Shown piece by piece: positions 43,496-53,534 of a stretch of DNA of 64,000 nucleotides. Below the pieces are notes generated by a model. The model was not told the origin of the DNA, did no database searches, and saw nothing but the letters and a program-made list of their open reading frames with translations. This DNA is from Streptomyces sp. 1331.2 (GTDB taxonomy: Bacteria; Actinomycetota; Actinomycetes; Streptomycetales; Streptomycetaceae): the NCBI RefSeq assembly GCF_900199205.1, contig NZ_OBMJ01000001.1, positions 4,343,001 to 4,407,000 of the forward strand. The letters run 5' to 3'. The translations under genes were made by a program, and so were the position numbers. Position 1 is the first letter of the stretch. The number at the start of each line of letters is the position of its first letter.

Positions 43496-44683
43496 GTGGA
43501 GCGTACGGCGCAGTGGCGGATGCGGGCGGCCGGGCTGAACCCGTACCTGCTGGACTCGCTGCTGGCGCTGACGTCCGCGGGCGTCGCGGCCTGGGCGGTC
43601 TACAACGACGACCCGCACTGGCCGGCCTGGGTCTACCTGCTGGCGGTCGCCACCGCCCTGCCGCTGCCGTGGCGGCGCAGGGCGCCACTGACCGTGCTGG
43701 CGCTGTACAGCGCCGCCGAGATCGCGCTGACGGTGCTGGCGCACTCGGCGAACGCCCAGGTCCCGCTGGCCGGTGTGATCGGCCTCTACACGGTGGCGGA
43801 ACGGTGTTCGGACCGGGTGCGCTGGTCAGTGTTGGCCCTCACGGTCGTCGGCAACCTGGTCGGGACGCACTCCCCGAACGGCGCGGTCTTCAGCCTGCTC
43901 ACCTCGGTCGGCTCCTACGTCTTCGGCTCGCTGGTGCGCGCCCAGCGGCAGCTGGCCCGGCTGGAGGCGGAGCGGGCCCAGGAGGCCGGGGAGCGGGCGG
44001 CCAGCGAGGCGGGCCGCGCGGTGGCGCAGGAGCGGGCCCGGATCGCGCGGGAGATGCACGACATCCTGGCGCACGCCGTCTCCCTGATGGTGATCCAGGC
44101 CGAGGCCGGGCCGGTGGTGGTGCGCAACGATCCGGACCGGGCGATCCGCGCCTTCGACACCATCGCCGACGCCGGGCGCGACGCGATGGTCCAACTGCGG
44201 CGCGTGCTCGGGGTGTTGAAGGAGGAAGGGACCGGCCCGCAGCTGGCCCCGCAGCCCCGGCTGGCCGAACTCGGCGAGGTCGCGGAGCGGGTGCGCCGGG
44301 CCGGTCTGCGGGTGGACCTCGACGTCGCCGACGGGCTGGGTGCGGTGCCCGCGGACGTGGAGGCGACGGCCTACCGGATCGTGCAGGAGGCGCTGACCAA
44401 CACGGTCAAGCACTCGGGGGCCGACCGGGCTGCGATCCGGGTGCGGCGGGGCGGCCGGGAGCTGGAGGTCGTGGTGTCGGACAACGGCCGTGGCGTGGCG
44501 GCGGCCCTCGGCCGTACGGTGGTCGGCTGGTCCGGCGGGCGCGGGCTGGTGGGCATCCGGGAGCGGGCGGCGGCCTGCGGCGGGCGGGCCGAGGCCGGCC
44601 CGGGGCCGGAGGGCAAGGGTTTCGTGGTGAGTGCCCGGCTGCCGTTGGGGGCGGACGGCGTGGTGGAGAGGGCGGGTGGATGA
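43496..44683 (+). CDS. NarL-type sensor histidine kinase
   Basis: A 395-aa membrane kinase. The N-terminal half has about four or five hydrophobic segments (residues 15-140), then a coiled-coil linker ('RAQRQLARLEAERAQEAGE'). The HisKA_3 phosphoacceptor motif is 'REMHDILAHAVSLMV' (His about residue 188). The HATPase shows 'IVQEALTNTVKHSG', 'SDNGRGV' and 'GRGLVGIRERAAACGG'. There is no large extracellular domain, so it probably senses membrane state. GTG 43496 has GGGGGAGG 7 nt upstream; a longer frame starts at 43406. The stop overlaps the regulator start (ATGA). Confidence 0.9.
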   Translation: MERTAQWRMRAAGLNPYLLDSLLALTSAGVAAWAVYNDDPHWPAWVYLLAVATALPLPWRRRAPLTVLALYSAAEIALTVLAHSANAQVPLAGVIGLYTVAERCSDRVRWSVLALTVVGNLVGTHSPNGAVFSLLTSVGSYVFGSLVRAQRQLARLEAERAQEAGERAASEAGRAVAQERARIAREMHDILAHAVSLMVIQAEAGPVVVRNDPDRAIRAFDTIADAGRDAMVQLRRVLGVLKEEGTGPQLAPQPRLAELGEVAERVRRAGLRVDLDVADGLGAVPADVEATAYRIVQEALTNTVKHSGADRAAIRVRRGGRELEVVVSDNGRGVAAALGRTVVGWSGGRGLVGIRERAAACGGRAEAGPGPEGKGFVVSARLPLGADGVVERAGG

Positions 44684-45360
44684 AGCCGATCCGGGTGGTC
44701 GTCGCGGACGACCAGGAGCTGGTGCGGGCCGGGTTCGGGATGATCCTGGACGCGCAGCCGGACATCGAGGTGGTGGCCGAGGCCTGTGACGGCGCCGAGG
44801 CGGTCGAGGCGGTGCGCACGCACGGCCCGGACGTGCTGCTGCTGGACGTCCGGATGCCGGTGATGGACGGGCTGGAGGCCGCCCGCCGGGTGTGCGCGGA
44901 GTTCCCGGCCACCAAGGTGATCATGCTGACCACCTTCGACATCGACGACTACGTCTTCGACGCGCTGTACGCGGGGGCCAGCGGCTTCCTGCTCAAGGAC
45001 GTCCGGCGGGACGACCTGGCGCACGGGGTGCGGATGGTCGCCTCGGGGGAGGCGCTGCTCGCGCCCTCGGTGACCAGGCGGCTGATCAGCGAGTTCGCCG
45101 CCCGGCGCCCGGGTGCGCCGGAGCGGGCGGTGCGGCCGCCGTCCCGGCTGCTGGAGCAGCTGACCCTGCGCGAACAGGAGACGCTGCGGCTGATCGCGCG
45201 CGGGCTGTCCAACGCGGAGATCGCGGCGGAGCTGGTGGTCAGCGAGCACACGGTGAAGACGCACGTCAGCAATGTGCTGAGCAAGCTCGGGTTGCGGGAC
45301 CGGGTGCACGCGGTGGTGTTCGCGTACGAGGCGGGGGCGGTGGTGGCGGGGGAGGCCTGA
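44680..45360 (+). CDS. NarL/LuxR-family response regulator
   Basis: A 226-aa regulator. The receiver domain has 'VVADDQELVR' (acidic pair), phosphoacceptor Asp56 in 'LLLDVRMPVMDG' and 'GFLLKDVRRDDL' (conserved Lys). The C-terminal LuxR helix-turn-helix reads 'LTLREQETLRLIARGLSNAE' and 'SEHTVKTHVSNVLSKLGLRD'. It is the cognate partner of the overlapping kinase gene (4-bp ATGA overlap). Its targets are unknown; the repeats just upstream of the next gene (45452-45502) are a possible site. Confidence 0.92.
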   Translation: MKPIRVVVADDQELVRAGFGMILDAQPDIEVVAEACDGAEAVEAVRTHGPDVLLLDVRMPVMDGLEAARRVCAEFPATKVIMLTTFDIDDYVFDALYAGASGFLLKDVRRDDLAHGVRMVASGEALLAPSVTRRLISEFAARRPGAPERAVRPPSRLLEQLTLREQETLRLIARGLSNAEIAAELVVSEHTVKTHVSNVLSKLGLRDRVHAVVFAYEAGAVVAGEA

Positions 45361-45451
45361 GTCGGGCTCCCCCCTGCGGGGGAGGCGGCCGGTTCGCCGG
45401 TACGGGCGATCCGCGACGAGGGGGCCGGCGGACAGGCTGTGCGGTGTCGCA

Positions 45452-45502
45452 GACGGACCACGGACCACGGATCCGGGATCACGGATCGCCGGATCACGGA
45501 CA
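45452..45502. repeat. CGGATC/CGGACC iterated motif upstream of a membrane-protein gene
   Basis: The stretch contains ACGGACC, ACGGACC, ACGGATC, GGGATC, ACGGATC, CCGGATC and ACGGACA spaced mostly 7-10 bp. It lies 17 bp before the next start codon, after the two-component genes. It may be an operator array or simple expansion; unproved. Confidence 0.5.
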
Positions 45503-45518
45503 CTCAGGGAGATCGCAG

Positions 45519-46133
45519 ATGAACGCCACCCCGAGCAGCCGCGTCACCTCGTACGCCGTCGTCGGCGCCCCCGCGCTGATGGCCCTCTACGGCGGGATCC
45601 GGCTGGTGCCGGGCTCCCGGGAGCCCGGCCTCGGCTGGACGGCCGGCCACGCCGCGATGTTCGCCGGGCTGCTGCTGTTCGCCCCGGTCTTCCTCGCCCT
45701 GCGCCGGCTGCTCGCCCCGCGCGGCACGGCGGTCGGGCGGGTGGCGGCGGGCGCGGTGCTGGGAACGGCCTTCGCGGGGCTCGCGGCCTCCCTGGTGCAG
45801 ATCGGGATCGACCTGGTCGTCGGCCTGGTGGCGGCGGACAAGGCCGAGCAGTCGCGCCTGTTCGACCGGGTGCAGGGCGTGCCGGGCGTGCTGCCCGCCG
45901 TCTACCAGGTGGGTCCGCTGCTCTTCTACGTCGGGCTGCTGGCGCTGCTGGTCGCGGCCGCGGTGCGCCCGGCCCGGGCGCTGCGCTGGTGGAGCCCGGT
46001 GCTGGTGCTGCTCGGGACGGTCGCCTCGGCTGTCGACCTGGCACTGATCCCGCTCGCCGCCGCCTGCTTCCTGGTGGCGCTGAGCCCGCTGGCCCGGCCG
46101 GCCGCTGCGACACCGCAGCTGGTGCTGCTCTGA
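45519..46133 (+). CDS. Predicted multi-pass membrane protein
   Basis: A 204-aa hydrophobic protein with about six transmembrane segments: roughly residues 12-28, 40-60, 75-100, 120-145 (with 'YQVGPLLFYVGLLALLVAA'), 150-165 and 170-190. A polar loop 'AADKAEQSRLFDRVQGVPG' links the middle helices. No catalytic or transport motif is recognisable. AGGGAG precedes the ATG by 8 nt. It lies 158 bp downstream of the response regulator gene, with CGGATC repeats between them, so it may be a target of that system. I do not recognise the family. Confidence 0.65.
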   Translation: MNATPSSRVTSYAVVGAPALMALYGGIRLVPGSREPGLGWTAGHAAMFAGLLLFAPVFLALRRLLAPRGTAVGRVAAGAVLGTAFAGLAASLVQIGIDLVVGLVAADKAEQSRLFDRVQGVPGVLPAVYQVGPLLFYVGLLALLVAAAVRPARALRWWSPVLVLLGTVASAVDLALIPLAAACFLVALSPLARPAAATPQLVLL

Positions 46134-46174
46134 GCCCGGCTCCGAGCACGGCGTGACGGCGGGCGCGGCGTCCG

Positions 46175-47971
46175 TCAGGTCATGCGGAAGACCGGGCCGC
46201 GCGGGGTGAAGGGCAGCCCGGCGCCGCGGGGGACGAGGTAGGCGTGTTCGCGGCGCACCCGCAGGACGTCGCACTCGCCGTCGGTGATGACCAGGACGGG
46301 TGCCCCGGGCGGGAAGTCCTCGGCCCGTTCCAGCAGGTCGATGCCCGGCTGCAGCACGGTGCCGCCGCGGCCGTGCACCCGGACCCGCCCGGCGATCTCC
46401 TCGACCGGGAGGTAGCCGGCGTCGTGCGGGGCGGCGTCGCAGTGCACCACCCGGGCGGCCGGGACGTCCCGGGCGGCGGCGTAGGAGGCGATCGCGCCGA
46501 GCGCCTTGCCGAGCAGTGTCGGGTCCATCGAGCCGGAGGTGTCCAGGACGACCCCGAAGGTGCAGCGCGGCACCTCCTCCTCGGGGCGGTAGCGGCCGGC
46601 TCGCGGGATGTCCGGGGTCGCGCACTGGCGGCGGGCGGGGCGGGAGTAGCTGCGCACCGGCTCCGGGCTCGGCACGAACTCGTCGAACCAGCGGGCGAGT
46701 TGTGCGTCCCAGGGGAGCGGCGGATGGGCGAGCGCGCGGATCTCCTGGACCAACCCGGCCGGGAGCAGGCCGCGTTGGCGCTGGTGCAGCTCGAAGCCCT
46801 GCTGCAGGCCGCGCCGGTAGAAGTCGTCGAGGTCCACGTAGTCGCGCGGGCCGCGGTCCAGCGGTTCGCCGAGGATGTCCGGACGGTTCTTCCCAGCCAT
46901 CGTGGCGAGGCGGCGGATCCGGCGCTGGTCGCCGACGATCCGGTCGTAGACCTCCTCGGTCGACAGGCCCTTCAACCGCGGGTCGTGCAGGAGGCCTTCG
47001 GGCATGTCGCCGACGCCCATCTCCAGCAGCCAGCCGTTGATGACGTAGTCGGCGGCGACGTTGAACAGGAACGGGTCCCGGCCGCCACGGCGCTCGCCGT
47101 GCCGCAGGGCGGCGTGCAGCATCTCGTGGCCGAGGATGAACCGCCACTCCTCGTCGGTGTGCCGGCGCAGCGGGTTGACGTAGATCTCGCCGACCTCGGC
47201 GTTGACCGCGGCGACCGCGATGCCGTGGGCCCGGGCGAGTTCGGCGTCGGCGACCACGGTGAAGGCGGCCGCGATGCCGCCGAGCAGCGGGTACGAGGAG
47301 ACGAACCAGTTGAGCGCCCTGGTCCAGGGCCGTTCGGGCAGCCGCTCGCCGGTCTGCTCGTCGATCCGGCCGCCGGCCCGGTCCATCGCGGCGGACATGG
47401 TGCGGGTGAGCGCGGCCGCGAAGGCGGTCTCCCAGTCCTTGGGCACGCGGTCGTGGCGGGGCCACTCGACCAGCAGCTGGTCGCGGTCGGCGGTCCCGGC
47501 CGTGCCGGCGGTCCCGGCCGACGGCAGGCCGTCGCGGCGCCAGCGGGCGGCCAGCTCCTCCTCGTCGCCGCCGGGGTACTCCTGCGGGAGGACGACCGGG
47601 GCGCGGCCGACCGGGAAGGTGGCGAGGAAGCGGTTGACCACCGCGCAGCGGGCGGCGGCCGCGCACTCGTCCGGCTGGACCCGGGTGCCGCGGGCGGCCG
47701 GGACGTGGCCGAAGCCGAGGTGCAGCAGGCAGTGCGCGAGCACCCAGGCCCACTCCTCGGGCTCGGCCCGGCGGCGCGGGTTGACGTGCACGGTGCCGTC
47801 GGAGTCGACCACCGCCCAGCCGCCGGGCGGGGCGACCGTGCAGTCCTCGCTGCGGCAGACCTGGGCGGGCAGGGCGGCCAGCGCCGGGTTGCGGCGCAGC
47901 AGGGTGAGGCCCTGGGTGAAGACCTCGGCGCCCGGGTCGGGCTTCTTCGCCTTCGCCGCCGCGGGCTTCAC
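46175..47971 (-). CDS. VWA-domain protein with two metallopeptidase-like HxxxHxxxxH modules (COG3864/DUF2201 type)
   Basis: A 598-aa cytosolic protein. Residues 62-90 and 264-292 are related to each other: both have a strand ending in NP-x-RR, then EEW, a short helix and an HxxxHxxxxH zinc-type motif (H80-H84-H89 in 'HCLLHLGFGH'; H282-H286-H291 in 'HEMLHAALRH'). The C-terminal third is a von Willebrand A domain with the MIDAS motif 'DTSGSM' from D477. Such proteins act with MoxR-type AAA ATPases, as here: the GTG start overlaps the ATPase stop (GTGA, 47968-47971). The pair may work as a chaperone or metal-insertion machine; substrate unknown. Confidence 0.82.
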   Translation of the reverse strand: MKPAAAKAKKPDPGAEVFTQGLTLLRRNPALAALPAQVCRSEDCTVAPPGGWAVVDSDGTVHVNPRRRAEPEEWAWVLAHCLLHLGFGHVPAARGTRVQPDECAAAARCAVVNRFLATFPVGRAPVVLPQEYPGGDEEELAARWRRDGLPSAGTAGTAGTADRDQLLVEWPRHDRVPKDWETAFAAALTRTMSAAMDRAGGRIDEQTGERLPERPWTRALNWFVSSYPLLGGIAAAFTVVADAELARAHGIAVAAVNAEVGEIYVNPLRRHTDEEWRFILGHEMLHAALRHGERRGGRDPFLFNVAADYVINGWLLEMGVGDMPEGLLHDPRLKGLSTEEVYDRIVGDQRRIRRLATMAGKNRPDILGEPLDRGPRDYVDLDDFYRRGLQQGFELHQRQRGLLPAGLVQEIRALAHPPLPWDAQLARWFDEFVPSPEPVRSYSRPARRQCATPDIPRAGRYRPEEEVPRCTFGVVLDTSGSMDPTLLGKALGAIASYAAARDVPAARVVHCDAAPHDAGYLPVEEIAGRVRVHGRGGTVLQPGIDLLERAEDFPPGAPVLVITDGECDVLRVRREHAYLVPRGAGLPFTPRGPVFRMT

Positions 47972-49032
47972 CGGCGGGCCTCGACCAGCCTGGGCATGTC
48001 CCGGGCGGCCTCGATCAGGAACCAGGAGGGCAGCACCGGGTTGCCGTCCGCGCCGTCGGCGATCACCGTCTGGGCGACCTCCACCGAGATCTCGGCCAGC
48101 TGCACCAGCAGCGACTTGGCCCGGAAGGCGGTCTGCCGCTGCGCCCCGGAGGCGTGCTCCTTGCTTGCGGGCAGCTCCTTGACGAGGCGGCCGCGGAAGG
48201 CGTCGGCCAGGTAGTAGAGCAGGTCCCGGTCCTCCAGCCGGTGCGGCCAGCGGGCGTCGCCCTTGAGGATCGCCTCCAGGCCGTACGAGTTGCGGACGAT
48301 CTTCGCGTAGCCGCAGAAGGCGATCGCGTGCTGGGGGGTGAGCAGGCCGTGCGCGACCACCTTGAGGGTCTCTTCGTCCAGGGTCGGGCCGAAGGAGTGC
48401 AGCGCGTCGGAGAGCATGTGCCAGGCGCGCGGGGTGGAGAACGGCTCCTCGGTCTTGGGCGGGGCGGACCACAGGTGATCGGGCCGGTCGGTGAGGTGGT
48501 CGAGGACCCAGGGGTGGATGCCGGCGCCGGCCGCCCAGCGCAGCCAGTCCTCGGCGTTGGCTCGCAGGTGGACGTGGACCATGCGGTTGACCAGCGCGGA
48601 CGCCATCGGGCGGGCCAGTGCGCCGTCGGTGGCGCGGTTCCCGGCGCCGATCACGATCGAGCCGGGCGGCAGCTCGTACGAGCCGATCCGGCGGTCCAGG
48701 ATCAGCGAGTAGAAGGCCTTCTGGACGTCCGGCGAGGCCGCGTTGAGCTCGTCCAGGAAGAGGCAGTACGGCTCGTCGCGGGCGATCTGCTCGGGCGGGC
48801 AGAACCGGGAGCGGCCCTCCGGGGTGAGCTGCGGGACGCCGATCAGGTCCTCCGGGGCGAGCTGGGTGCCGACCAGGCTCACGCACTCCAGGCCGAGCGA
48901 TTCGGCGAACGCCCTGACCAGGGAGGACTTGCCGATCCCGGGAGCCCCCCAGAGGAACACCGGGCGGACGGTGGCCAGTCCGAGCAACAGCTCGGGGATC
49001 TGGGCGGGCGAGACGCTGACTGCTCCCTGCAC
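47968..49032 (-). CDS. MoxR-type AAA+ ATPase
   Basis: A 354-aa ATPase. Walker A is 'GAPGIGKSSLV' (about residue 30), Walker B is 'LFLDELNAA', sensor I is 'VIGAGNRATDG', and a later helical lid follows. It resembles the MoxR AAA+ subgroup that works with VWA proteins, encoded immediately downstream with a 4-bp overlap. GTG 49032 is chosen because AAGGAG lies 4 nt upstream; the frame extends to 49101 but the extra residues are not family-like. The partner has a VWA MIDAS site and zinc-type motifs, suggesting ATP-driven remodelling or maturation of an unknown target. Confidence 0.87.
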   Translation of the reverse strand: MQGAVSVSPAQIPELLLGLATVRPVFLWGAPGIGKSSLVRAFAESLGLECVSLVGTQLAPEDLIGVPQLTPEGRSRFCPPEQIARDEPYCLFLDELNAASPDVQKAFYSLILDRRIGSYELPPGSIVIGAGNRATDGALARPMASALVNRMVHVHLRANAEDWLRWAAGAGIHPWVLDHLTDRPDHLWSAPPKTEEPFSTPRAWHMLSDALHSFGPTLDEETLKVVAHGLLTPQHAIAFCGYAKIVRNSYGLEAILKGDARWPHRLEDRDLLYYLADAFRGRLVKELPASKEHASGAQRQTAFRAKSLLVQLAEISVEVAQTVIADGADGNPVLPSWFLIEAARDMPRLVEARR

Positions 49033-49143
49033 GGGGCTCCTTCGCGGTACGGCGGCTGACCGGCCCAGTGTGCGGCCCGAGTTGGGGCGGCGCACCCGCA
49101 TTTTTGGTGGCCGAGGGCGGGCCGGCGGCCGTACCGTCCGGGC

Positions 49144-49877
49144 ATGAACGCGAAGCGCCCCCTGATCGCCGTGCTCACCGGCGCGGGCATCTCGACCGAC
49201 TCCGGTATCCCCGACTACCGCGGCCCGCAGGGGCTTTGGCAGCAGGACCCGTCGGCCCAGCGGCTGGTCACCCTCGGGCCGTACCTGGCCGATCCGGAGG
49301 TGCGGCGGCGGTCCTGGCGGCTGCGGCTGGAGACGGGCGCGTTGGCCGCCGAGCCGAACGCCGGGCGCTGGTCGAGCTGGAGCGCTCCGGGCTGCCGCTG
49401 CGGGTGCTCACCCAGAACGTCGACGGGCTGCACCAGGCGGCCGGGCTGAGCGCCCGCAAGGTGCTCGAACTGCACGGCACCGCACGGGAGGTGCAGTGCC
49501 TGGACTGCCGGGCGGTCGGGCCGATGGCGGAGGCGCTGGCGCGGGTGGAGGCGGGGGAGCCGGACCCGGCCTGCCGGGAGTGCGGCGGGATCCTCAAGCC
49601 GCGCACGGTGATGTTCGGCGAGCACCTGGACCCGGTGGTGCTGCAGCAGGCCGACGCCATCGCCAAGGGCTGTGACCTGTTCATCGCCGTGGGGACGAGT
49701 CTGCAGGTCTACCCGGTGGCCTCGCTGCCGCAGATCGCCCTGGAGGGCGGTGCCCGGCTGGTCGTCGTGAACGGCGAGCCGACCCCCTTCGACGAGGCCG
49801 CGGACGAGGTGATCCGGGAGCCGATCTCGCAGGCGCTGCCCGAGCTGGTGCGGAGGCTGGTCAGGGAAGGGGCGTAA
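49144..49877 (+). pseudogene. Frameshifted NAD-dependent protein deacetylase (sirtuin)
   Basis: The 5' part (frame of 49144) encodes 'VLTGAGISTDSGIPDYRG', the NAD-binding GAGIS motif. The rest, in the frame one base behind, encodes 'VLTQNVDGLHQAAGL', 'LELHGTAREVQCLDC' (catalytic His, first zinc Cys pair), 'CRECGGILKPRTVMFGE' (second pair) and 'GTSLQVYPVASLP'. The break is near 49360, where GCCGGGCGCTGG stands. If the ancestor read GCCGGGCACCGGGCGCTGG, a 7-bp deletion between two CCGGGC repeats would explain it exactly. Without the lesion it would be about 244-246 aa and complete. It may be a true pseudogene or a sequencing error; every motif is otherwise intact. Confidence 0.85.
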
Positions 49878-49951
49878 GGACCCTTTACGGACGTACCGCC
49901 TGCATACGATGATCGTCCCGGCTTCCTCTCACGGCCTGGAGTGATCGAGCG

Positions 49952-51166
49952 ATGACGACGACGGCGAAGTTCGACCCCTGGTCGGCGGCGTTCGTGGCCC
50001 ACCCGTACGACGCGTACGCCGACCTGCGCACGCACGCGCCGGTGACGTACTTCGAGCCGACGAACCAGTGGCTCGTCTCCCGCCACGAGGACGTCAGCGC
50101 GCTGCTGCGCGACCGGCGGCTCGGCCGCACCTACACCCACCGGTTCAGCCACGCGGAGTTCGGCCGCCCCGAGCCCGACCCGGCGCACGAGCCCTTCCAC
50201 ACCCTGAACGACCACGGCCTGCTCGACCTGGAAGCGCCCGACCACACCCGGATCCGCCGGCTCGTCTCCAAGGCCTTCACCCCGCGCATGGTCGAGGGCC
50301 TGCGCCCGACCGTCCGGCGCCTCGCCGGCGAACTGGTCGACGGCCTGCTCGCGACCGGCGGCGGCGACCTGATCGCCGCCGTCGCCGAGCCGCTGCCGGT
50401 CGCCGTGATCGCCGAGATGCTCGGGATCCCCGAGGGCGACCGGCACCTGCTGCGGCCCTGGTCCGCCGACATCACCGGGATGTTCGAGCTCAACCCGAGC
50501 GAGGAGGCCGCCCGCCGGGCCGTCACCGCGAGCACCGAGTTCTCCGACTACCTGCGCGCCCTGATCCGCGAACGCCGGGAGACCCCGGGGGAGGACCTGA
50601 TCAGCGCGCTCATCCAGGCCCAGGAGGGCTCGGACGCGCTCAGCGAGCAGGAGATGGTCTCCACCTGCGTGCTGCTGCTCAACGCCGGCCACGAGGCGAC
50701 CGTCAACACCACCGGAAACGGCTGGTGGGCGCTGTTCCGCCACCCCGACGAACTCGCCCGGCTGCGCGGCTCGGTGGACGAAGTGCTGCCCACCGCCGTC
50801 GAGGAACTGATGCGCTGGGACACCCCGCTGCAGATGTTCGAGCGGTGGGCCCTGGAGGACATCGAGGTCCGCGGCGTCACCATCCCGCGCGGCGCTGAGA
50901 TCGCCCTGCTCTTCGGCTCCGCCAACCGCGACCCCGACCGCTTCGCCGACCCCGACCGCCTCGACCTCGGCCGCACCGACAACCCGCACATCACCTTCGG
51001 CGCCGGAATCCACTTCTGTCTGGGCGCGCCCCTTGCCAGACTGGAGCTCACCGAGTCCTACGGCACACTGCTGCGCCGGGCCCCGGGCCTGCGGCTGGTC
51101 CGCGAGCCCGAGTGGAACCCGGGCTACGTGATCCGCGGGCTCAAGGAGCTGCTGGTCGAGGTGTGA
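49952..51166 (+). CDS. Cytochrome P450, bacterial class I type (CYP107-like)
   Basis: A 404-aa soluble heme monooxygenase. The heme-binding loop is 'FGAGIHFCLGAPLAR' with Cys356 as the iron ligand, the K-helix ExxR is 'EELMR', and the I-helix reads 'NAGHEATVNTTGNG'. The catalytic Thr that normally follows the acid (AGHETT) is Ala249, with Thr250 next to it, as in P450eryF-like enzymes where the substrate supplies the hydroxyl. No ferredoxin or reductase gene is adjacent, so it must use partners encoded elsewhere. ATG 49952 gives a normal N-terminus. The substrate is unknown. Confidence 0.95.
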   Translation: MTTTAKFDPWSAAFVAHPYDAYADLRTHAPVTYFEPTNQWLVSRHEDVSALLRDRRLGRTYTHRFSHAEFGRPEPDPAHEPFHTLNDHGLLDLEAPDHTRIRRLVSKAFTPRMVEGLRPTVRRLAGELVDGLLATGGGDLIAAVAEPLPVAVIAEMLGIPEGDRHLLRPWSADITGMFELNPSEEAARRAVTASTEFSDYLRALIRERRETPGEDLISALIQAQEGSDALSEQEMVSTCVLLLNAGHEATVNTTGNGWWALFRHPDELARLRGSVDEVLPTAVEELMRWDTPLQMFERWALEDIEVRGVTIPRGAEIALLFGSANRDPDRFADPDRLDLGRTDNPHITFGAGIHFCLGAPLARLELTESYGTLLRRAPGLRLVREPEWNPGYVIRGLKELLVEV

Positions 51167-51185
51167 CGGAAAGAGGGGGGCTGCC

Positions 51186-52184
51186 GTGGGCAAGGCGACG
51201 GGCGCACTACTGGGGCTGGCGATCGGGGACGCACTCGGCCGGCCGACCGAGTTCCAGGACGTCGACCGGATCGCCGCCGACCACCCCGACTGGCGGCAAC
51301 TCCCGCTGCCGGCCAAGGCATTGGTGACCGACGACACCCAGATGACGCTCGCCCTCGGCCGCGGCCTGCGCACCGCCCTGGCCCGTGGGCCACTGACGCC
51401 CCTGCGCCTGGAGCGGCCGGTCCGCGAGGAGTTCGTCGACTGGTGGCGCTCCCCGGAGAACAACCGCGCCCCCGGCATGACCTGCCTGCGCTCCTGCGAG
51501 CGGCTCAGCCACGACCAGGTCCGCTGGCAGCAGGCCAGCGACGTCGGCTCCAAGGGCTGCGGCGCCAACATGCGGGTCGCCCCGGTCGGGCTGATCCGCG
51601 ACCTCGACGCCCGGCAGGCCGCCGGCGCCGCCCAGCTGCAGTCCGCGCTCACCCACGGCCACCCGACCGCGCTCGCCGCGAGCGACCTCACCGCGTACGC
51701 CGTCCGCAAGCTGGCCGAGGGCGTTCCGCCGGCCGTGCTGCCCGCCGTGCTGCGGGCGTACGCGCTGGCGAGCCGCGAGCGGTACGACGAGTTCTGGCTC
51801 GGCGACCTCGCCGACCAGTGGTACGGCGCCTCGCCGCAGGCCGTCATCGCCCGGGGCTGGGACGACTGCCTCGCCGTCCTCGACCAGCTGGAGGCAGCGC
51901 TCGCCGCACCCGACGTCGAGGCCGACCCGTGCCTGGCCACCGGCGAGGGCTGGGTCGCCGAGGAGGCCTTCGGCACCGGCCTGCTCTGCTTCCTGCTGCT
52001 GCCGGACGACCCGGTCGCCGCCGTCCGTCGGGCCGCCTACTCCGGCGGTGACTCCGACTCGCTCGCCTGCCTGACCGGCGCCTTCGCGGGCGCCCACCAC
52101 GGCGAGGAGGCCTGGCCGGGGGAGTGGGTCGCGCGGATCGAGCACCGGGACGAGCTGCTGGAGCTCGGGGCGCTCTGGGACTGA
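51186..52184 (+). CDS. ADP-ribosylglycohydrolase-family protein (first copy)
   Basis: A 332-aa all-helical protein of the ADP-ribosylglycohydrolase (DraG/ARH) superfamily. Metal-binding motifs: 'GALLGLAIGDALGRPTEF' near the N-terminus, 'VTDDTQMTLALG' (Asp pair), 'THGHPTALAASDL' and the C-terminal 'YSGGDSDSLACLTGAF'. Such enzymes remove ADP-ribose from proteins or small molecules, or act on related O-glycosides. GTG 51186 has an AG-rich AAAGAGGGGGG upstream. It starts 19 bp after the P450 stop on the same strand, so the two are probably co-transcribed. Substrate unknown. Confidence 0.88.
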   Translation: MGKATGALLGLAIGDALGRPTEFQDVDRIAADHPDWRQLPLPAKALVTDDTQMTLALGRGLRTALARGPLTPLRLERPVREEFVDWWRSPENNRAPGMTCLRSCERLSHDQVRWQQASDVGSKGCGANMRVAPVGLIRDLDARQAAGAAQLQSALTHGHPTALAASDLTAYAVRKLAEGVPPAVLPAVLRAYALASRERYDEFWLGDLADQWYGASPQAVIARGWDDCLAVLDQLEAALAAPDVEADPCLATGEGWVAEEAFGTGLLCFLLLPDDPVAAVRRAAYSGGDSDSLACLTGAFAGAHHGEEAWPGEWVARIEHRDELLELGALWD

Positions 52185-52223
52185 TCCGGGGAACCCGGAG
52201 CGGGGGTGGCGCGTCGAAGGGCC

Positions 52224-53534
52224 ATGACGAACAGCAGCACCGGAAACCGTCGTCGCGCCGCCCTGCTCCTCGCCGCCGTGCTTGCCGCGCCGCTGCTCAG
52301 CGGTTGTGGGAGTACCGGTGCCGGCGCCGGTGCGGAGGTCAGGGCCTCCGCGCCGGCGAGTCGGCCCGCGGTCGACCCGGCCCAGGTGGCGGCTACCGCG
52401 AAGGCCACCGCCGCCTTCGGGCTGGACCTCCTGCACGTCCTCACTGCCAAGCCGGACGACGCGGGGCGCAACCTCGTGGTCTCCCCGACCGGCCTGGCCA
52501 CCGTGCTCGCCATGGTGCTCCCCGGCGCCCGCGGGGCGACGGCCGACGAGTTGGCCAAGGCCCTGCACACCGAGCTCGACCCGAAGCAGTACGCCCTCGC
52601 CGTCGGCGCGTCCGACCAGCAGGCCAAGAACGGTGACCAGGTCACCCTGCGCCAGAGCGACCAGGTCTGGACGCAGCAGGGCTTTCCGGTGGAGCCCGAC
52701 TACCTGGCCACCCTCGCCGCCGACTTCGACGCCGGAGTGCACACCACCGACTTCAAGAAGGACCCCGAGGGCAGCCGCAAGGCGGTCAACGCGGCCGTGG
52801 AGAAGGCCACCGAGGGGCGGATCAAGGACCTCTTCGCCCCGAAGGCGATCAACCCGGACACCAGGCTGGTCCTCACCGACGCGCTCTACCTCAAGGCGAA
52901 GTGGGCCTCCGAGTTCAAGCCCTCGCACACCGAGGACCGCCCGTTCCACAAGCTCGACGGCACCGCCGCGAACGTCTCCACGATGAGCCGGACCGGCGAG
53001 TTCAAGTACGCCGACGGCTCCGGCGGGATCCTCGGCGAGCCCTGGCAGGCCATCGAACTCCCCTACGCGGGTGGAAACTTGGCGATGGACCTGATCGTCC
53101 CCGCACAGGGCGGCTTCGCGGCCTTCACCAAGGAGCTGGACCAGCCCGAGCTCGACCGGATCCTCGGCGCCCTCGCCGAGCAGCCCGTCGACCTGCAGCT
53201 GCCGCGCTTCCACTTCGACACCTCCGACGAGCTCACCCCCGCGCTGCGCTCGCTCGGCGTGCACTCGGCCTTCGACAACGCCGACCTCAGCGGCATCGCC
53301 AAGGACCAGCCGCTCGCCGTCAGCACGGTGGTGCAGAAGGCCACCGTCCAGGTGGACGAGGAGGGCACGGTCGCGGCGGCCGGCAGCGGCGTCGGGATCG
53401 GCGTGGCGGCGGCGCCCGCCCCACAACAGGCCGCCCAGCTGCACATCGACCGGCCGTTCCTGTTCCTGATCCGGGACACCTCGGGCGGGCGGCCGCTGTT
53501 CCTCGGCCAGGTCGTCGATCCGCAGGCGAAGTAG
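52224..53534 (+). CDS. Serpin-family lipoprotein
   Basis: A 436-aa exported serine-protease-inhibitor-like protein. The N-terminal signal ends in a lipobox 'LLSGCG' (Cys about residue 29), so it is membrane-anchored outside. Serpin landmarks: 'NLVVSPTGLATVLAMVLPGA', 'NAAVEKATEGRIKDLF', 'VLTDALYLKAKWASEF', 'VQKATVQVDEEGTVAAAG' (hinge of the reactive-centre loop) and 'DRPFLFLIRDTSGGRPLFLG'. The loop 'GVGIGVAAAPAPQQ' is Ala/Gly-rich and would suit an elastase- or subtilisin-like target. ATG 52224 is used; a GTG at 52206 is in frame. It converges with the next gene with no gap. Bacterial serpins are uncommon, and its target is unknown. Confidence 0.88.
   Translation: MTNSSTGNRRRAALLLAAVLAAPLLSGCGSTGAGAGAEVRASAPASRPAVDPAQVAATAKATAAFGLDLLHVLTAKPDDAGRNLVVSPTGLATVLAMVLPGARGATADELAKALHTELDPKQYALAVGASDQQAKNGDQVTLRQSDQVWTQQGFPVEPDYLATLAADFDAGVHTTDFKKDPEGSRKAVNAAVEKATEGRIKDLFAPKAINPDTRLVLTDALYLKAKWASEFKPSHTEDRPFHKLDGTAANVSTMSRTGEFKYADGSGGILGEPWQAIELPYAGGNLAMDLIVPAQGGFAAFTKELDQPELDRILGALAEQPVDLQLPRFHFDTSDELTPALRSLGVHSAFDNADLSGIAKDQPLAVSTVVQKATVQVDEEGTVAAAGSGVGIGVAAAPAPQQAAQLHIDRPFLFLIRDTSGGRPLFLGQVVDPQAK

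Follow-up and report, generated by a model that had tools for sequence, protein, structure and literature searches.

Tandem zincin modules in a VWA-like protein encoded beside a MoxR-type ATPase in Streptomyces sp. 1331.2, the first without the catalytic glutamate

Results and Discussion

Two homologous zincin-type modules stand in front of the VWA-like domain of a 598-aa protein (46175..47971, reverse strand, GTG start) in the analysed window, a stretch of 64,000 nucleotides from Streptomyces sp. 1331.2. From comparison of their sequences, the first module is best read as a pseudopeptidase and not as a second catalytic site, and the second appears capable of proteolysis. The first-pass annotation had spotted the duplication correctly, and it is real and conserved, but its reading of the first site as a metal enzyme is corrected here. 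The family itself is already known as PF13203.

Internal duplication

Residues 25-143 and 224-344 are homologous to each other (hhalign 98.2%, E 2.8e-14; 98.4%, E 6.6e-15 with the modules reversed), and either module compared with residues 375-598 as a control gave 0.1-0.2%. This HMM-HMM self-comparison had been named as a check on the duplication, which was borne out as well by BLASTP (residues 1-180 against 181-400, E 2e-9, 35% over 100 columns) and by Smith-Waterman alignment of module 1 with module 2 (score 93; 30.3 +/- 5.2 and a maximum of 58 in 2000 shuffles). The motif HxxxHxxxxH lies at residues 80-89 (HCLLHLGFGH) and 282-291 (HEMLHAALRH), exactly at the histidines first listed (H80/H84/H89 and H282/H286/H291). 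The motif pair is beyond chance, because whole-protein shuffles rarely gave two motifs (1 of 20,000; at least one motif in 205) and because of the BLASTP, shuffled Smith-Waterman and hhalign results.

In the full-length model (pLDDT 73.3, pTM 0.42; poor outside the modules and the VWA part), the order of elements was identical between module 1 (strands 53-56 and 60-63, helices 71-86 and 102-118) and module 2 (strands 254-257 and 262-265, helices 273-289 and 300-318). The segments said to be shared, a strand with NP-x-RR, EEW and HxxxHxxxxH, held for the histidine motif across 110 aligned sequences, but 'NP-x-RR' and 'EEW' of module 1 do not extend to the family, where residue 64 is His in 79/110 and residue 72 is Ala in 64/110.

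In the Pfam search, PF13203 (DUF2201_N) matched the protein as a single stretch at residues 217-453 (E 4.7e-28, 99 bits, gathering cut-off 23.2), and no separate match to module 1 was found. At E <= 0.001, this protein was the only PF13203 match in the whole 8.43 Mb genome. The NCBIfam search gave no useful match, and Rfam at its gathering score gave none at 44000-52500 of the window. The nearest named loci belong to Streptomyces and Kitasatospora, their best segments being 94% and 89% identical.

VWA domain, ATPase pairing and gene neighbourhood

The VWA-like domain (residues 466-598; 46178..46576, reverse strand) is compact, at about 133 residues, and was recognized from its fold, its MIDAS and a match to PF09967 (DUF2201 VWA-like; E 1e-4, 22.8 bits) that stayed under the gathering cut-off of 26.4. 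The VWA part reached VIA Z 12.2 against the CLCA1 VWA domain. Fold searches with the full-length model were filled by VWA domains, and Foldseek found nothing in the PDB for this model at E <= 0.001. The MIDAS noted earlier, D477/S479/S481/T538/D564, is intact in 55/55 sequences.

Directly upstream and overlapping by 4 nt lies the gene of a MoxR-type AAA+ ATPase (47968..49101, reverse strand; 377 aa, start codon uncertain), with the Walker A motif GAPGIGKS. AAA_5 exceeded its cut-off (E 6.5e-10), AAA_3 (23.8) and bpMoxR (17.9) stayed under theirs (27 in both cases), phrog_1297 ATPase matched at E 6.4e-70, and the records of relatives are annotated 'MoxR family ATPase'. The overlapping partner gene reported at first is thus confirmed, and it is a constant one: a same-strand ATPase gene was present within 300 nt in 80/80 genome-contig loci and 29/29 other orthologue loci, and it adjoins the VWA gene in nine further loci by annotation or ORFs. 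The two marks of a MoxR AAA+/VWA pair, an AAA+ neighbour and a DxSxS..T..D MIDAS, were accordingly found in all 80 loci and all 55 sequences, respectively.

No third gene was common to all loci within about 5 kb, each neighbour from the window recurring in 8-12 of 80. One of these counts, 11/80 for a sirtuin, is rough, the query having been wrongly framed, with stops. In the other 69 loci, the largest ORF clusters were a membrane protein (46), DnaK (33), an MBL-fold protein (33) and an OsmC-like protein (32), as named by reading the sequences of long, codon-usage-filtered ORFs and with six distant loci left out; they probably reflect common Streptomyces gene order. In the PADLOC search for anti-phage defence systems, P0001 had no family at E <= 1 and P0002 had three weak matches (best E 0.0057), so that neither was placed in such a system.

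The sirtuin gene adjoining the ATPase gene is itself frame-disrupted (49068-49877 and 49144-49449, forward strand): the N-part (profile 1-32) and C-part (67-180) of SIR2 lie in different frames. Among 11 relatives searched, 9 matched, and in 9/9 both parts lie in one frame, and the break is either a true disruption or an assembly error. Two genes from the sirtuin, an ADP-ribosylglycohydrolase is encoded (PF03747, E 7e-63; 51186-52184, forward strand), which occurs in 12/80 orthologue loci.

Distribution of the two-module form

Within the order of the window's genome, 54 of 147 genomes matched, 49 of them near full length (one with an internal stop); in the remainder, one gene was split between contigs and four genomes held fragments only. 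Four members of the window's family (L162, L163, L164 and genome G038) hold gene fragments only, and the gene pair is accessory and decaying in places. More distant two-module relatives were found in another actinomycete family (L132, 53% identity), on Nostocales plasmids (L146 and L148, 47-49%), on a Miltoncostaea plasmid (L147, 47%), on a gut scaffold recorded as 'Bacteriophage sp.' (unverified; L152, 46%) and on an IMG/VR contig (L153, 47%). Each distant two-module gene on these plasmids and contigs filed as viral adjoins an AAA+ ATPase gene, that of L153 being short (245 aa).

Overall, 50 of 72,556 plasmid records matched; coverage of the query was 80% or more in four, among them a Streptomyces record. 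Among 50,697 phage records, 293 matched, one of them with coverage of 80% or more. The A2 alignment search of viral contigs gave 2 relatives among 227 stretches, and viral contigs searched with the L146 and L152 proteins gave none. On the gut scaffold (L152, 1-10508), several metallophosphoesterase-like ORFs surround the two-module gene, and the neighbours look bacterial from a reading of the ORFs.

Module 2 and the third-ligand position

Module 2 (residues 211-345; 46937..47341, reverse strand) forms the first part of the PF13203 match and carries the HExxH signature of zincins in its motif HEMLHAALRH (47099..47128), which lies on the predicted active-site helix 273-289. In the 110-sequence alignment, consisting of the query and loci L003-L111 (104 distinct rows), H282, E283, H286, H291, R294, D308 and N312 are invariant, and the glutamate is also kept in the distant two-module relatives (L132, L146-L148, L152, L153). 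A profile of eight two-module proteins matched selecase across the HExxH region of module 2 at E 5e-6, with proabylysin (E 0.28) and the M48 peptidase 3c37 (E 0.31) following in the same region.

In gluzincins, the third metal ligand lies in the helix that follows the HExxH helix, and M48 enzymes have an acidic ligand downstream. At this place module 2 has an invariant acid, Asp instead of Glu: D308 (47048..47050; 110/110), which sits in the helix after the HExxH helix and is the candidate third ligand. The third histidine of HxxxHxxxxH is probably not a ligand, because a His stands at +9 also in 3c37 when it is aligned to the profile, and M48 enzymes employ the downstream acid.

Module 1

Module 1 (residues 8-172; 47456..47950, reverse strand) was predicted alone by AF2 from 42 aligned sequences with pLDDT 93.1 and pTM 0.90. 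This prediction, also among the proposed checks, gave a zincin-like fold. In VIA-align, selecase ranked first (4qhi, Z 6.4, 3.1 A over 91 residues; 4qhf, Z 5.9), followed by jannalysin (Z 5.5) and, just under it, Wss1, ArdC, BepA and an M48 peptidase (Z 4.9-4.8). Seven of 724 PDB chains reached Z >= 5 and none reached 8, and these scores are modest, lying in the range under 8 where chance arrangements occur. Most of the best 50 rows carry titles of zinc peptidases or their relatives, and Foldseek against viral models placed phage VWA-like/metallopeptidase proteins on top, two at E <= 0.001.

The conservation of the first motif (47705..47734), on which the earlier claim depended, is complete in its histidines: H80, H84 and H89 are invariant in 110/110 sequences. 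Residue 81, the place of the HExxH glutamate, is Ala in 62, Cys in 41, Gly in 4, and Thr, Val and Ser in one each. Glu, the general base expected after the first His of an active metallopeptidase, was found there in 0/110 sequences and in 0/7 further orthologues, namely six more distant ones from within the order, with identities of 57.6-61.0%, plus one half gene, in which both motifs agree 7/7; it is also absent from L132, L146-L148, L152 and L153. Within residues 50-111, the other invariant positions are S57, H62, W74, G88, D101, A107, R108 and C109. The set of 55, which includes the most divergent members, leaves 9 invariant columns of 165 in module 1, the three histidines among them, and module 1 with its following linker is the fastest-evolving part of the protein (mean pairwise identity 0.55 and 0.56, compared with 0.74 for module 2 and 0.81 for the VWA domain).

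The place of D308 is taken in module 1 by C109 (47645..47647; 110/110). In the ungapped alignment, this position is Cys in actinomycetes and in L132 and L147, Asn in L146 and L148, and Asp in L152 and L153. An invariant C109 in 55/55, and with it the place of C109 among the nine invariant columns, was set aside, as it depends on a gap placed by MAFFT; the ungapped helix was preferred, anchored by the WN/FN before the helix (L132, L147). Because of this pattern among lineages, module 1 seems to have lost Glu first and Asp later in two lineages, an order drawn from present-day sequences. Since the third-ligand position varies, module 1 may have lost the ability to bind metal, if nowhere else then in the members on cyanobacterial plasmids, which have Asn.

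These observations bear on a possible but unlikely explanation, that module 1 is a metal-free structural scaffold in which the histidines are kept for packing. The variation among Cys, Asn and Asp at the third-ligand position and the rapid evolution of module 1 and its linker would agree with it. However, three histidines kept in every one of the 110 sequences amid the drift of the module exceed, in our judgement, the usual demand of packing.

Single-module relatives and loss of the glutamate

Single-module relatives (DUF2201) are common, phages included, and the HExxH glutamate is absent in 11 of the 24 in our tree. One Glu-less group, family f28 (L133-L140; 12 matches in 9 genomes, eight loci fetched), has H[LIVMC]xxHxxxxH + ACD in 8/8 loci, and another (L112, L113, L115) has HHxGHLLRDH + AAD; both keep HxxxHxxxxH and the downstream Asp (H-H-H-D). 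On the tree, the glutamate state needs three changes, at least two of them forced by well-supported branches. A 761-aa protein on a Deinococcus sp. QL22 plasmid (L149) lacks the first His and the Glu of module 2; its gene lies near one annotated as TerD family. Because the glutamate was lost in both single-module groups and in this protein, hydrolysis seems, from the sequences, not to be what selection keeps throughout the family, and because two single-module groups without Glu still keep the gene, the chief role of the family may be other than proteolysis. Part of the family cannot safely be labelled 'putative metallopeptidase', since module 1 and those 11 single-module proteins have no catalytic Glu. 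The label 'HNH endonuclease' of PHROG 1314 looks wrong: the group matches the zincin-VWA protein at E 3.6e-40. Among the 30 phage records listed, 9 are named in this way at the place of the match.

A single origin of module 1 is well supported by its sequences, the module 1 rows forming one group at 100/100 in a first tree (14 rows) and 97/95 in a second (10 rows), and no source of module 1 is well supported. In the first tree (L118 left out by hand, L116, L119, L120 and L129 by the filter; L131 and L133-L149 not entered as single-module rows), module 1 fell among the module 2 sequences from two-module proteins and was separated from the single-module rows (94/95). In the second tree, which included Glu-less f28 rows and left out near-copies (L123, L125-L128, L130, L148 and others), it joined f28 and L129 at 49/46, with a warning of long branches.

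The Glu-less relatives would also fit metal-centre assembly, in which the zincins would not work as peptidases but would grip the client and hold a metal, a metal cofactor being inserted or reorganised by the MoxR/VWA pair much as NorQ/NorD acts on FeB. The retention of H-H-H-D without Glu in f28 (8/8) and in L112/L113/L115 and the three changes of glutamate state, at least two forced by starred branches, argue for it, and MoxR proteins are involved in cofactor assembly according to the part of PMC9976466 available. Against it, module 2 has its Glu in 110/110 sequences and in the distant two-module relatives (L132, L146-L148, L152, L153), and no metalloenzyme gene was common to all neighbourhoods examined, so that we regard metal-centre assembly as quite unlikely. 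The strongest form of the original idea, two equal and active metallopeptidase sites, is hardly tenable, for the identical His spacing and zincin-like fold of both modules stand against a first module without Glu in 110/110 sequences, the 7 further orthologues and L132, L146-L148, L152 and L153, and with a third-ligand candidate that varies between Cys, Asn and Asp. What stands of the two-metal-site machine is the duplication, the conservation of both modules, the ATPase and the MIDAS; the equality of the two sites as metal enzymes does not. Neither outcome named at first as refuting the claim came about, motif 1 being conserved and module 1 modelled alone having a zincin-like fold.

Proposed mechanism

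We give an even chance to the reading of a MoxR/VWA remodelling pair with a tandem zincin head, module 1 non-cutting and module 2 cutting. The MoxR-type AAA+ ATPase and the VWA co-chaperone would form an ATP-driven remodelling pair, and the N-terminal half of the co-chaperone, a tandem of two zincin (minigluzincin-like) domains, would be the client-binding head. Module 2 would hold zinc through H282, H286 and D308 and cleave the client, E283 acting as the general base. Module 1, presumably unable to hydrolyse peptides, would be a head for docking, structure or regulation and would probably still bind a metal, through H80, H84 and C109 in actinomycetes. The VWA MIDAS would bind the client and the ATPase ring would reshape it, as proposed for NorQ/NorD, and by that analogy a role as client head is the best mechanism we can suggest for the tandem zincin. 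To our knowledge, the client of most MoxR/VWA pairs is unknown.

A bolder version, which we consider unlikely, makes module 1 a converted zincin whose His-His-Cys metal site would act as sensor or client grip and gate the active module 2 under the MoxR motor. Family-wide, the HExxH glutamate would have been discarded repeatedly with the ligands kept, and the zincin domains of MoxR/VWA machines would often be metal-dependent grips and not enzymes. An intact and a disarmed copy of one peptidase domain in the same protein offer a clean internal control for whether machines of this kind cut, grip or metallate the client.

Comparison with known systems

NorQ/NorD, RavA/ViaA and CbbQ/CbbO likewise join a MoxR AAA+ ATPase to a VWA partner with a MIDAS, and the proposal for NorQ/NorD is client binding by the MIDAS, added specificity from the N-terminal domain and remodelling powered by the ATPase ring (PMC9976466); in the accessible portions of the sources, the N-terminal domains of these partners are not described as zincins. 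A pore 'finger' has also been proposed for NorD. A MoxR and a vWA protein fused to an N-terminal metallopeptidase were noted in group 2.2 jumbo phages, with a virion-assembly chaperone function and proteolytic processing proposed and one metallopeptidase domain (PMC7824862). By description, this is the same kind of gene pair and the same peptidase-VWA fusion, although that pair is phage-borne and the 598-aa protein is encoded on a bacterial chromosome, and the jumbo-phage section, as available, mentions no second or inactive module. MoxR-vWA ternary conflict systems have a third component such as VMAP, iSTAND or FtsH (PMC7159879, in part); here, no further gene common to all loci within about 5 kb was found as a candidate for it. 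Active and inactive metallopeptidase domains occur side by side in, e.g., carboxypeptidase D, as described in PMC11266112, a review in whose main text neither 'MoxR' nor 'VWA' occurs.

The HExxH region resembles by profile those of the minigluzincins (selecase MJ1213, proabylysin, jannalysin) and M48 peptidases, and the fold of module 1 resembles selecase (Z 6.4) and jannalysin (5.5). These peptidases stand alone, whereas the 598-aa protein fuses zincins to a VWA domain. Their third ligand is Glu, in contrast to the Asp or Cys at this place in the 598-aa protein.

The accessible open-access literature on DUF2201, MoxR/VWA-metallopeptidases and minigluzincins yielded no description of the two-module form. 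The closest relatives are the DUF2201 proteins (PF13203 + PF09967) encoded beside MoxR ATPases, such as the 'VWA-like domain-containing protein' of a Synechocystis plasmid pair and of phages, which share module 2, the middle part, the VWA domain and the paired ATPase gene. The DUF2201 proteins examined have one zincin module, whereas the 598-aa protein carries an extra, Glu-less copy in front of it.
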